Shown here: positions 49,976 to 56,630 of the stretch, one piece after another | Position numbering within the stretch: position 1 is the stretch's first letter | Layout of the letters: each line of letters starts with the position of its first letter | Assembly: GCA_018822105.1 (NCBI GenBank) | Contig: JAHJLB010000011.1 | Location: 1-64,000, forward strand | DNA length: 64,000 nt | Direction of reading: 5' to 3' | Origin: Pseudomonadota bacterium | GTDB lineage: Bacteria; Desulfobacterota; Desulfovibrionia; Desulfovibrionales; Desulfovibrionaceae | The notes under the pieces: generated by a model | The model's input: only the letters and a program-made list of their open reading frames with translations | Database searches by the model: none | What the model was told of the DNA's origin: nothing | Position numbers and translations under genes: made by a program

Positions 49976-50434
49976 TTAAACGTAGTCAATCGCTACCGAG
50001 TAGGATTCATCCGTTTGCATAAGGGTGGCCTTGCCGACCATATTTGGAGTATCTGCTATCAAATGTATCTGGAAACGTCTTGTCTCGTAAGCGGGTACAG
50101 GAATTGTGGCATTTTTCATTGGATACTCATCAAGCTCAACAACAACATTCGCTCCGTATTCATCCTGTTTTGTGCCAACAACATCATAAAACTGCCCGCA
50201 ATTAGCATAAATTCTCTTTATAACAATATCCCTGTGCTGTCTGTTTGTAATAACGAGAGTGCATTTAAAAGACGTATCGTAAGATTCTACATCATCAAGA
50301 AATGCATATGGCTTGCGAATTTTTTCCTCCTCTTTCCATCTTCTACATTCAATATATCCAACGATACCAGAAATAATGAGGGCAAAGATAGAAACAATAA
50401 AGGCAAGGCTAGAAACAATATCGCTGTAAACCAT
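49976..50434 (-). CDS. AT-rich, single-TM protein of unknown function (moron candidate)
   Basis: RBS CAGGAG then ATG: MVYSDIVSSLAFIVSIFALIISGIVGYIECRRWKEEEKIRKPYAFLDDVESYD...; opposite strand to all flanking phage genes. Confidence 0.7.
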   Translation of the reverse strand: MVYSDIVSSLAFIVSIFALIISGIVGYIECRRWKEEEKIRKPYAFLDDVESYDTSFKCTLVITNRQHRDIVIKRIYANCGQFYDVVGTKQDEYGANVVVELDEYPMKNATIPVPAYETRRFQIHLIADTPNMVGKATLMQTDESYSVAIDYV

Positions 50435-50476
50435 AATGTACTCCTGAGGCATGCCACATTATTTTACGGCTAGAGG

Positions 50477-50557
50477 TGGGGGCTGCCCTGTGGTGCGCGA
50501 ACACCACCTGGCGGCCGGATAAGTTGCAGTATCCGACCAGGTGAAACCCAGCCCCCA
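50477..50557 (+). ncRNA. structured leader RNA, C4-antisense-like
   Basis: Outer stem TGGGGGCTG (50477-50485)/CAGCCCCCA (50549-50557); hairpin GTGGTG/CACCAC (50490-50495/50502-50507); stem CACCTGG/CCAGGTG (50505-50511/50537-50543) enclosing CGGATA/TATCCG (50516-50521/50530-50535); loop complementarity to downstream start region. Confidence 0.6.
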
Positions 50558-50597
50558 GATCTCGTAGGCGAGTTCGGGGATAGCACAAGAGGGTCGG

Positions 50598-51968
50598 ATG
50601 GAAAACCTCAAAATCGAAGAGTGGCCCGTGGAACGACTCCAGCCCAGCGCAACCCAGCTCCGGCAGCATGATGCCGCCGTTCCCCGCATGGCCGAGGCCC
50701 TGCGCGAGTTCGGCTTCCGCGTGCCCCTGCTGGCCAAGAGCGACGGCGAAGTCATCGACGGCCATCTACGCCTCAAGGCCGCCCTGGCCATCGGCCTGGC
50801 CACGGTCCCGGTCATCCTGGCCGACGATCTCACCCCCACCCAGGTGCGTACCTTCCGGCTGCTGGTGAACCGCTCGGCCACCTGGGCGGACTGGGCCGAG
50901 GATGCGCTGCGCGTGGAGCTTGCCCAGCTGCAGGCGCTGGACGTGGACCTGGCGCTCACCGGCTTCGACGCCCGCGAGCTGGACGCCTTCATCCTGGGCG
51001 CCACCCTGCCGGGCAAGGCCGACCCGGACGCCGTGCCCGAGCCCCCGGCCGAGCCCGTGAGCAAAGAGGGCGACCTGTGGCTCCTGGGCCGCCATCGTCT
51101 GCTCTGCGGCGACTCCCGCTCACAAGCGGACGTGGCCCGGCTCATGGACGGCGAGGCGGCGGACATGGTCTGGACCGACCCGCCCTACAATGTGGCCTAT
51201 GAGGGCAAGGCCGGGCGCATCAAAAACGACAGCATGAGCAGCTCGGCCTTCGATGCCTTCCTGGACGGGCTCTTCACCCAGGCCTGGACAGCCCTGGCCG
51301 ACGGCGGCGCCATCTACGTGGCCCATTCCGAGGCCGGGGGCGGCCTGGCCTTCCGGCAGGCCTTTGCCCGCGCAGGGTTCAAGCTGGCCTCCTGCCTCAT
51401 CTGGCGCAAGCACCAGATGGTGCTGGGCCGGGGCGACTACCACTGGCAGCACGAGCCCATCCTCTACGGCTGGAAGCCCACGGCCGCGCACACCTGGCAT
51501 GCGGACCGCAAGCAGACCACGCTCCTAGAGCACTTCGCCGGGGCCACCGTGCTGGAGGCAGCGCCGGGACAGTGGCAGATCGCCACCGGAGACGCCGTGC
51601 TGCTCGTCACCGGCCAAGGCGTCACCGTGGAGCAGCTCGACTCCAGCGTCCTCTCCGTTCCCAAGCCCGCCGTGAGCGCCCTGCACCCCACCATGAAGCC
51701 CGTGGCCCTGGTGGAGCGCATGCTGGCCAACAGCAGCCCGCGCGGCGGCCTGGTGTTCGACCCCTGCGGGGGCTCCGGCACCACGCTCATGGCGGCAGAG
51801 CGCATGGGGCGGCGCTGCAACACCATGGAACTCGACCCACGCTTTGCCGATGTCATCAAGCAGAGGTGGGAGGACTACACCGGGCAGACGGCCGTGCTGT
51901 CCACAAGCATGGCCTCTTGTCCAGCCGCCCTGCCCGCCACACACCAGGAGGCCGCCCATGCACAGTGA
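50598..51968 (+). CDS. ParB-N domain / DNA methyltransferase fusion
   Basis: N-terminal ParB-like (GEVIDGHLRLKAALAIG), MTase motif VWTDPPYNVAYEG and FDPCGGSGTTLMAAERMGR. Confidence 0.88.
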   Translation: MENLKIEEWPVERLQPSATQLRQHDAAVPRMAEALREFGFRVPLLAKSDGEVIDGHLRLKAALAIGLATVPVILADDLTPTQVRTFRLLVNRSATWADWAEDALRVELAQLQALDVDLALTGFDARELDAFILGATLPGKADPDAVPEPPAEPVSKEGDLWLLGRHRLLCGDSRSQADVARLMDGEAADMVWTDPPYNVAYEGKAGRIKNDSMSSSAFDAFLDGLFTQAWTALADGGAIYVAHSEAGGGLAFRQAFARAGFKLASCLIWRKHQMVLGRGDYHWQHEPILYGWKPTAAHTWHADRKQTTLLEHFAGATVLEAAPGQWQIATGDAVLLVTGQGVTVEQLDSSVLSVPKPAVSALHPTMKPVALVERMLANSSPRGGLVFDPCGGSGTTLMAAERMGRRCNTMELDPRFADVIKQRWEDYTGQTAVLSTSMASCPAALPATHQEAAHAQ

Positions 51969-52746
51969 GCAAGACCTCCTCGCCCTGGCGGCGCAGAGCG
52001 GGAAGAATGACCTGGCCTTTCTGATCAAGGCCAAGGAGGAAGCGAAGCGCCGCATGAGTGACAACGCATCGCCCGAGAACGTCCGGGCCTTCAACACGGC
52101 CAAGGACGCCGTGGAGGCCGAGGCCGCCAAGCTGCAGCCCGCCGCCCCCGGCCTGACCTTCAAGACCCAGCTGGCCGCCGTGGACTGGCTCACGGCCCAG
52201 GGCTTCAAGATCAAGAAGTCCAAGTTCAACGAGGACCTGAAAGGCCGCAAGCGGGGCGGGCCGAAGATCGCCACCAACACGGACGGCCACTTCGAGGCCT
52301 CCGCCCTGCTGGCCTATGCCCAGGTGCACCTGCCCCCCCTGGCTAGGGCCGAGGACGCCAAGAGCAGCGCCGTGGCCAACATGAAAATCACGGCCGACAC
52401 CCGGCTCAAGGAAGTGCAGGCCCAGCGCCAGGAGTTGAAGCTGCAGAAAGAGCAGGGCCAGCTCATGCGCATCAGCGAGCACGAGGCCCAGCTGGCCGCG
52501 CGGGCCATGTTCTTCCGGAGCGAGCTGGAAGGCTTCGGCCTGCGCGCCATCCCGGCCCTGATCCAGCTGGCGGGCGGGGACGAGGCCAAGCTGCCCGAGG
52601 CCCTGGAGTGGTGGGCCGACACGGCGGCAGACCTCATGGACGCCTGGGCGCAGGATCGCGAATTCACCACCGGCGACGAAGTGGAGATCCAGGGCGACGA
52701 ACCCGGCGGCGAGGAGCTGGCCGAGGATGTGGGGGCAGAAGGGTGA
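51958..52746 (+). CDS. putative terminase small subunit
   Basis: Position directly upstream of the large-subunit locus; N-terminal LTAQGFKIKKSKFNEDLK DNA-binding-like region, coiled coil, acidic tail. Confidence 0.6.
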   Translation: MHSEQDLLALAAQSGKNDLAFLIKAKEEAKRRMSDNASPENVRAFNTAKDAVEAEAAKLQPAAPGLTFKTQLAAVDWLTAQGFKIKKSKFNEDLKGRKRGGPKIATNTDGHFEASALLAYAQVHLPPLARAEDAKSSAVANMKITADTRLKEVQAQRQELKLQKEQGQLMRISEHEAQLAARAMFFRSELEGFGLRAIPALIQLAGGDEAKLPEALEWWADTAADLMDAWAQDREFTTGDEVEIQGDEPGGEELAEDVGAEG

Positions 52747-53573
52747 GCACTCCGACCCGCCCCGTTCTCCGCTACCATGGCGGCAAGTGGAAGCTGGCCC
52801 CGTGGATCATCAGCCACTTCCCGGCGCATCGGGCCTATGTGGAGCCTTTCGGGGGGGGGGCATCCGTGCTGCTGCGTAAGCCCAGGGTGCCGACAGAGGT
52901 TTGGAATGATCTGGACGGTGAGCTGGTGCACCTGTTCAAGGTGCTCCGTGACCCCTCGAGCGTAGAGGCATTATCCAGATCCTGCGCCCTCACGCCCTTT
53001 GCGCGAGAGGAGTTCGATCTCTCCTACGAGGAAACCGAGGACCAGGTGGAGCGCGCCCGCCGCTTCATCGTCCGTAGCTTCTTTGGCTACGGCAGCAAGG
53101 CATGTATCAGCCATGCCAAGAACGGATTTCGCTGTCTGCGCACAGGCGAGAATTCTCCGGCAGTAGACTGGAGCCGCTACCCGGAGGCCTTGCAAGCCGC
53201 CGCGCGTCGCATGCTTGGCGTGGTCATTGAGCACAAGCCTGCCCTGGACATCATCCGGCGCTTCGACCGCCAAGATACCCTGTTCTATTTGGACCCGCCC
53301 TACGTCCAGGGCCTGCGGAATCTTGAGCAGGGCATCTACCGCCACGAAATGACCGACGATGAACACCGCGAGCTGGCTGCCAGCCTGCTGGAGATCAAGG
53401 GCATGGCCGTAGTGAGCGGCTACCGCTGCGCGCTCTATGACGAGCTGTATTCTGGCTGGCGGCGCTTGGACTGCCGGGCTTATGCCGACAAAGCCAGCCC
53501 GCGCACCGAGTCGCTGTGGATATCGCCGAAGGCCCAGGCCGCAACGCAAGGCAAGCTCCTGGAGGTAGTCTAG
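52743..53573 (+). CDS. Dam-like adenine-specific DNA methyltransferase
   Basis: LRYHGGKWKLAPWIISHFPAHRAYVEPFGGGASVLLRK motif I; LFYLDPPYVQG motif IV. Confidence 0.9.
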   Translation: MSTPTRPVLRYHGGKWKLAPWIISHFPAHRAYVEPFGGGASVLLRKPRVPTEVWNDLDGELVHLFKVLRDPSSVEALSRSCALTPFAREEFDLSYEETEDQVERARRFIVRSFFGYGSKACISHAKNGFRCLRTGENSPAVDWSRYPEALQAAARRMLGVVIEHKPALDIIRRFDRQDTLFYLDPPYVQGLRNLEQGIYRHEMTDDEHRELAASLLEIKGMAVVSGYRCALYDELYSGWRRLDCRAYADKASPRTESLWISPKAQAATQGKLLEVV

Positions 53574-55447: not shown

Positions 55448-55677
55448 GCAGCAAGAAAGCCATCGCCGCAGCAATCGCCCTGGCCCAGGCCGGTGTGGAC
55501 TACTCGCCCAAGACCGGGGCCACCTGCCCGTGCTGCAAGGCGGATCATGTGAGTGTGTACAAAACTATGCCATGGGTCGGTAGCATGCGAGTGCGCTACC
55601 ATAAGTGCCAGACCAACTCCTGCATGATTTCAGCAATCGGTGCAGGAATTAAGAGCATTGAGGTTTGTCATGATTGA
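55444..55677 (+). CDS. small zinc-finger protein (Ogr/Delta-like)
   Basis: CPCCKADHVSVYKTMPWVGSMRVRYHKCQTNSC. Confidence 0.55.
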   Translation: MSSKKAIAAAIALAQAGVDYSPKTGATCPCCKADHVSVYKTMPWVGSMRVRYHKCQTNSCMISAIGAGIKSIEVCHD

Positions 55678-56447
55678 TCATTGCGAATGATGTTCTGAAC
55701 AGCTTCCGAAGAAGCTGCAAACTGCAAAGACGTTGAATCAATTCTTTGTTGACGAATTGAAATACTGAACATCAGCATCTGACGACTATACATATCGCCT
55801 TGCTTCTTATCTGAAATTCCAGTCAGAGGCTTAAGCACTTCGATATACAAATCTGCTTCCGCAATGAGTCTTTGCAACGATCTCCACCAGCACATAAGTG
55901 TTTCAGGTTCAGTAATATGGTCAATATCATTGTTTGCAAGTGCGTTTTCAACGATATCGTAAATACCGGAAGTGTTGTCATACATTGATGTGTACGAGTA
56001 ATGAATTGTGATTGCATTTGCGTCTAGGAGTGACAAGTCCTTAGCATCCATATCGCTAATCGATCCCATAAGATGCTTATCTTTGAGCATTCTTATGTAC
56101 GCAGCAGGTAGCACTGTGGAGCCACCGGGTGCTTTCTTCTGGTTGAAGCTGTCCCTAAACACCGATGAGACAATGAGGCAAAGCGAATGTTCAACTGTAT
56201 AGTTTTCTCCAGATAGTTTTGACCACATCTCCTGTGCGTCGCTCGGTAACAATTCAACTATATAATTACTTACGACTTCTTTCATCGCTTTTATCCACAT
56301 TATCCTTGACAATATTACTAATGCGATCTTCCGCTCTGCCTCGCGTCTTGCGCGTTTTGCCCAATACCCTGTGGACCAGTGCATTGCCAAAGAACCGGCA
56401 ACGGCTCCAAGGCATGCGGACATGATGGCTATGGTTGCTTCGCTCAT
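55668..56447 (-). CDS. AT-rich, N-terminal-TM protein of unknown function (moron candidate)
   Basis: RBS GGGAGG then MSEATIAIMSACLGAVAGSLAMHWSTGYWAKRARREAERK...; opposite strand inside the packaging/head operon. Confidence 0.7.
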   Translation of the reverse strand: MSEATIAIMSACLGAVAGSLAMHWSTGYWAKRARREAERKIALVILSRIMWIKAMKEVVSNYIVELLPSDAQEMWSKLSGENYTVEHSLCLIVSSVFRDSFNQKKAPGGSTVLPAAYIRMLKDKHLMGSISDMDAKDLSLLDANAITIHYSYTSMYDNTSGIYDIVENALANNDIDHITEPETLMCWWRSLQRLIAEADLYIEVLKPLTGISDKKQGDMYSRQMLMFSISIRQQRIDSTSLQFAASSEAVQNIIRNDQS

Positions 56448-56630
56448 GAGCCCTCCCGATCTTCCCGTGCAGATAGCATGGGGAATATCATAGCGCAATG
56501 TCGCGTTCACATATGTTGTCAATGTGTTACGCCTTGCTGCGCATAGTAAATTACCACCCCTGGTAACGACACCCTTCCATTCCGTTTCCGTGCGGAAGTA
56601 AAACGGACGCAAATCTTACGGAGGATTTGC

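Follow-up and report, generated by a model that had tools for sequence, protein, structure and literature searches.

The window, the whole 64,000-nucleotide stretch of DNA that we analysed, contains a prophage gene for a ParB-N plus N6/N4 DNA methyltransferase, preceded by an 85-nt RNA element that lies between the gene and an AT-rich divergent ORF. The predicted element consists of an outer stem (P1) around two hairpins (P2 and P3), and is followed by a linker that carries a further small hairpin (P4), a short conserved box and the start region of the methyltransferase gene. The segments that a first-pass annotation had assigned to these helices are all present at the positions it gave: TGGGGGCTG (50477-50485) and CAGCCCCCA (50549-50557) for P1, GTGGTG (50490-50495) and CACCAC (50502-50507) within P2, and CGGATA (50516-50521) and TATCCG (50530-50535) for P3. 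P2 of the window copy has an internal mismatch. The 85-nt element folds at -40.3 kcal/mol, with z = -2.4 against dinucleotide shuffles, and its relatives in L003 and L004 fold at z = -4.8 and -5.0.

Table 1 Features of the leader and its flanking genes (positions in the window).
Feature	Position	Strand	Evidence
AT-rich divergent ORF at the 5' edge of the element, outside the conserved unit	49976..50452	-	no Pfam/PHROG match
Whole conserved RNA element, predicted three-way junction, 85 nt	50474..50558	+	models R1/R2, 96.9 and 83.2 bits
P1 5' strand, partner 50549-50557	50477..50485	+	compensatory changes in 6/9 pairs
Extended P2, 50481-50485 with 50512-50516; competes with the top of P1	50481..50516	+	compensatory changes in 13/15 pairs
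P2 hairpin, 50486-50495 with 50502-50511	50486..50511	+	compensatory changes in 10/10 pairs across the family
P3 hairpin, 50516-50521 with 50530-50535	50516..50535	+	99.5% of cells paired; compensatory change in one pair
Putative anti-start segment (P3 3' arm and first junction bases); complements 50592-50600 with one U-G pair	50530..50538	+	permutation, position scan, pair counts
P1 3' strand	50549..50557	+	covariation in 44-copy alignment
Small hairpin P4, CTCG-TAGG-CGAG, directly after P1	50561..50572	+	seen by eye
TANCA box, conserved, upstream of the ribosome-binding region; TAGCA in the window	50581..50585	+	
Start box GGTCGGATG, spanning the start codon of the methyltransferase gene	50592..50600	+	covariation with the P3 3' arm in the relatives
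ParB-N + N6/N4 DNA methyltransferase (PHROG 498), putative regulated gene	50598..51968	+	PF01555 1.3e-26, phrog_498 2.7e-143

At the place of P4, many relatives have hairpins of other sequence, as judged by eye. The TANCA box occurs in all aligned copies except L190, and also in L325. No covarying partner was found for it when we looked for one, and it is loosely similar to the sites to which CsrA and other RNA-binding proteins attach. A search of the window region for promoters and terminators returned one promoter-like match, in line with chance expectation, and no terminator.

Three viral contigs (L002, L003 and L004) carry the same leader ahead of the same methyltransferase, and an alignment of the four sequences, made without a structure model, shows six compensatory pairs. 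A covariance model built from this alignment (R1) detected the element in 20 of the 288 genomes of the host's family (12 of 44 genera), in collections holding one genome per species. A second model (R2) extended the range to another bacterial family within the phylum, with the element in 4 of 20 genomes, and repeating the search of the host's family with it gave zero additional genomes. Viral contigs were also retrieved by sequence pattern: one degenerate pattern yielded 22, of which those new to the set were all confirmed by R2, another yielded three more, and further patterns with variant arms yielded no new copies. Among GenBank phages, no relatives were found at the DNA level. Fitted to the model, 44 copies from prophages and viral contigs (alignment A4), which are related by descent, have 17 of 24 base pairs changed on both sides, with 91.9% of cells pairing; the compensatory change across homologous leaders that the first-pass annotation proposed to look for is therefore present. 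None of 500 shuffles reached the covariation score of this alignment, and slid controls scored far lower. The distance from the element to the start of the downstream gene is near-constant, at 34-52 nt.

Rfam release 15 gave no convincing family match for the window region up to E = 10, and in 19 relatives, searched up to E = 1, the element itself was overlapped by only one sub-threshold match at chance level (Collinsella-1, E 0.16, in L176). Our searches of open-licence papers found no description of the element. From these comparisons, the element is best read as a new, previously uncatalogued RNA family that would act like a start-occluding leader.

Most copies precede a ParB-N6/N4 methyltransferase of PHROG 498, as in the window. 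Other copies are followed by D12/Dam methyltransferases (L188, L190 and L191), a stand-alone N6/N4 methyltransferase (L200), a C5-cytosine methyltransferase (L325), a ParB-like protein and then Mom (L189/L318), a ParB-like protein and then an ABC-ATPase/GNAT protein (L192/L322), or PHROG 7405-type proteins, which in L193, L197 and L202 are succeeded by DAM-like and GNAT proteins. The element is thus found before a DNA-modification gene or before a ParB-like/PHROG 7405 gene at the head of a DNA-modification operon, with at least six gene types downstream, and the earlier proposal of a DNA methyltransferase as the target, which fits the window, has to be widened to several kinds of DNA-modification operon. 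The D12 methyltransferase behind the L188 copy (L319:8126-9000 (-)) is broken, its frame stopping after 60 codons with D12 similarity continuing downstream. In the window, R2 finds only the element at 50474-50558, and a second methyltransferase of the same prophage, a D12-type gene at 52743-53570 (+), lacks an element of its own. Relatives of the ParB-methyltransferase at ~56-63% identity (L083-L087, L006 and L007) also lack a copy, indicating that the leader is an optional module.

The genome contexts of the copies differ: the element lies between primase and terminase genes in the window, L193 and L212, in Mu-like prophages in L319 (with a MuB-like transposition gene) and L321 (with GemA), and after the tail genes in L320. 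What the copies have in common is therefore the DNA-modification gene and not the genome position. This bears on a reading in which the RNA is a structural element without translational control, serving mRNA processing or stability or a packaging-linked site, and its match to the start is incidental. The many copies between primase and terminase genes would suit such a role, but the Mu-like and post-tail copies stand before DNA-modification genes too, and both the RNA covariation and the covariation with the start codon region described below argue against it, so that we regard it as very improbable. One Mu-like prophage also carries a Type II hammerhead ribozyme (RF02276, 53 bits; L191:1838-1908 (-)) ~250 nt upstream of its element; ribozymes of this type are enriched near Mu-like phage genes (PMC10085705).

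The 3' arm of P3 is complementary to the start of the downstream gene. The 8-nt complement reported in the first-pass annotation, ATCCGACC (50531-50538) to GGTCGGAT (50592-50599), is exact and overlaps the ATG at 50598, and shuffled elements have a complement of this length to the start region in 0.44% of cases. A second complementarity claimed there, CGAAC with GTTCG (5 nt), is not sustained as functional: chance gives a match in 28% of shuffles, and a search across the family for matches in the downstream linker that covary with the P2 loop returned none. For 23 representatives (under about 80% alike), the mean best arm:start run is 7.30 compared with 6.49 when permuted, and 0 of 20,000 permutations reach the observed value for either run length or duplex energy; with 30 representatives, 0 of 50,000 permutations do so, although these p-values overstate independence because the copies are related. 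When the element is scanned along its length, z exceeds 4 only in windows over the P3 3' arm. A weaker signal (p about 0.003-0.006, with 42 windows tested) links the P3 5' arm region to the linker. Five of the nine arm:start pairs have changed on both sides; this count comes from alignment A5, where the starts of three copies were shifted to bring the boxes into line, and the permutation tests are independent of this shift.

Individual lineages illustrate this covariation. In L182/L184, AUUCG arms go with CGAAU starts, such that 5' arm, 3' arm and start all change together. L185 combines a UCCAGUCAA arm with the start box UUGAUUGGA at a UUG start codon, L190 an AUCCAA arm with a UUGGAU start, and L325, which was retrieved by a pattern that did not include the arm, a UCCAAUC arm with GAUUGGA over the ribosome-binding region of its C5 methyltransferase. 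In L185, L190 and L325, part of the match between the two arms of P3 has been lost, but the 3' arm still fits the start. We considered pure mimicry, in which the start merely copies the P3 5' arm, and rejected it as the sole explanation, since the starts of these three copies follow the 3' arm. Standard arms with an AUCCG core give, on their own, a modest excess (950 of 50,000 permutations), so that a few variant lineages supply much of the arm:start signal. The complementarity is down to 6 nt in many copies and is broken in L176. Other TCGGATG sites in the window are no commoner than chance, and thus do not suggest targets in trans.

The 5' strand of P1 appears to have two possible partners. 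Bases 50481-50485 can pair with the P1 3' strand or with 50512-50516, the latter extending P2. In the extended P2, 13 of 15 pairs covary, and the extension pairs 50483-50514, 50484-50513 and 50485-50512 all do; at alignment column 10, some lineages keep one partner and others keep the other. Competing folds had been part of the first-pass annotation, which drew the alternative stem between CACCTGG (50505-50511) and CCAGGTG (50537-50543). Both strings are present and competition between folds holds up, but that stem is not kept in the alignments of relatives, and the extended P2 is the better supported helix. Full leaders are bistable when folded: arm:start pairing and P1/P3 mostly exclude each other. 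The window leader is predicted to favour the masked state (AUG unpaired 0.04), and the unmasked fold is expected to prevail in roughly half of the copies; the start codon is held in structure in the predictions for many leaders, not all. Two mutually exclusive folds are therefore predicted, and the covariation of P1/P3, of extended P2 and of arm with start backs them.

These comparisons of sequence support the element and its helices, the pairing of arm with start and the link to DNA-modification genes. We consider it likely that the element, as part of the leader of these phage genes, is an RNA switch that acts in cis and masks the start. With P1, P2 and P3 formed, the P3 3' arm would be held in the three-way junction and the start codon would be open to the ribosome. 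In the other fold, the upper 5' strand of P1 would join P2, opening P1 and P3, and the freed P3 3' arm (AUCCGACC in the window) could pair with the start region (GGUCGGAUG) and block initiation. We infer that translation is repressed in the masked state and that the balance of the two folds is what the phage uses to time DNA modification.

The upstream side of the element suggests a cue for such a switch. In 35 of the 44 copies an open frame stops no more than 7 nt from the 5' end of the element, which is confirmed for long upstream genes in L193, L197, L202 and L212. The AT-rich divergent ORF has taken the place of this upstream neighbour in the window; in other copies, different upstream genes end at the element. 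Both this ORF (49976-50452 (-)) and another AT-rich ORF (55668-56612 (-)) have no Pfam/PHROG match, lie on the strand opposite to the GC-rich phage operon, and look like recently inserted accessory genes. Because the stop codon usually abuts the P1 5' strand, which a terminating ribosome would cover, our preferred guess is that translation of the upstream gene is the cue. The close spacing to the upstream stop also favours a cis-acting part of the mRNA over a separately transcribed antisense RNA.

An antisense RNA had been proposed in the first-pass annotation, which described the element as a C4-like leader. C4 of phages P1/P7 (RF01695) is ~80 nt long, has an outer stem around two hairpins with a 3' linker, lies just upstream of the gene it regulates, and has a short complementarity to the translation start region; our element, at ~80-87 nt and with an outer stem and two hairpins, resembles it in all of these. 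However, RF01695 gave no match up to E = 10 for the window or up to E = 1 for 19 relatives, in a Rfam search in which P1 C4 itself, as positive control, scores 68.8 bits, and R2 did not match P1 C4. C4 uses two antisense segments, a' and b' (P3 loop), whereas the element has one that is conserved, in the P3 3' arm. C4 precedes icd/ant, whereas the copies examined precede DNA-modification genes, or ParB-like/PHROG 7405 genes at the head of DNA-modification operons, with no antirepressor gene downstream. Membership in the C4 family was therefore rejected. A trans-acting RNA that merely works like C4 is a separate matter: a free ~85-nt RNA, cut from the transcript, would use its P3 arm to block translation of the methyltransferase and of that of superinfecting relatives. 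The size and topology equal to C4, and the overlap of the anti-start segment with the P3/linker region where C4 carries a', are consistent with this, but besides the missing model match, second segment and antirepressor, a frame ending within 7 nt in most copies leaves no space immediately upstream in which the element could have its own promoter, and we find such an RNA doubtful. The first-pass reading of the locus as a whole is thus partly supported, in that a structured RNA leader with a P3 3' arm complementary to the methyltransferase start is present, and this complementarity covaries with the start across the family.

The closest functional precedent for a start-masking switch is com-mom of phage Mu, where, as proposed here, mRNA structure masks the start of a DNA-modification gene. 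In Mu, the Com protein opens this structure (PMC6483171); the Mu structure is a local hairpin opened by a zinc-finger protein, whereas the element is a larger, covarying junction RNA. By analogy with Com on mom, a phage or host protein could bind the junction or P3 and open or lock the start. The precedent itself (PMC6483171), the L318 copy at the head of an operon with a Mom gene, and the strong conservation of the junction bases GRCC and CAGG and of the TANCA box, which pairing does not fully explain, fit a protein-bound leader. Against it, no Com zinc finger (PF10122) adjoins the element in the 24 element-bearing genomes searched, the only notable hit on the same contig being weak and 16 kb away, and simple autoregulation by the first gene is unlikely because first-gene products differ between copies. 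On balance we judge protein binding to be unlikely. A strong Mu Com zinc finger (88.9 bits; G000:C36:48195-48338) is encoded elsewhere in the host genome of the window, on a different contig and probably within a different prophage.

Translational riboswitches and ribosomal-protein leaders are a further parallel to the cis-acting switch, as in these, too, two folds exclude each other and the start region is hidden in one of them; the element differs from them in being phage-borne, absent from Rfam release 15 and with no known ligand. There is a slim chance that the junction senses a small molecule, for example the methyl donor S-adenosylmethionine or its by-product, making it a phage riboswitch that times DNA modification. 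If this were true, it would be a ligand-sensing RNA common to unrelated phages and to many kinds of DNA-modification gene.

Phages shield their DNA from host restriction by methyltransferases and by Mom-type modification. To our knowledge, there are few cases in which the timing of these enzymes is understood in detail, com-mom being the classic one. The operon-heading PHROG 7405 genes are, from their position behind the element, likely partners in DNA modification. Judged from sequence, phages of different types would have in common one RNA control module placed before at least six types of DNA-modification gene, for which we propose a specific base-pairing mechanism.
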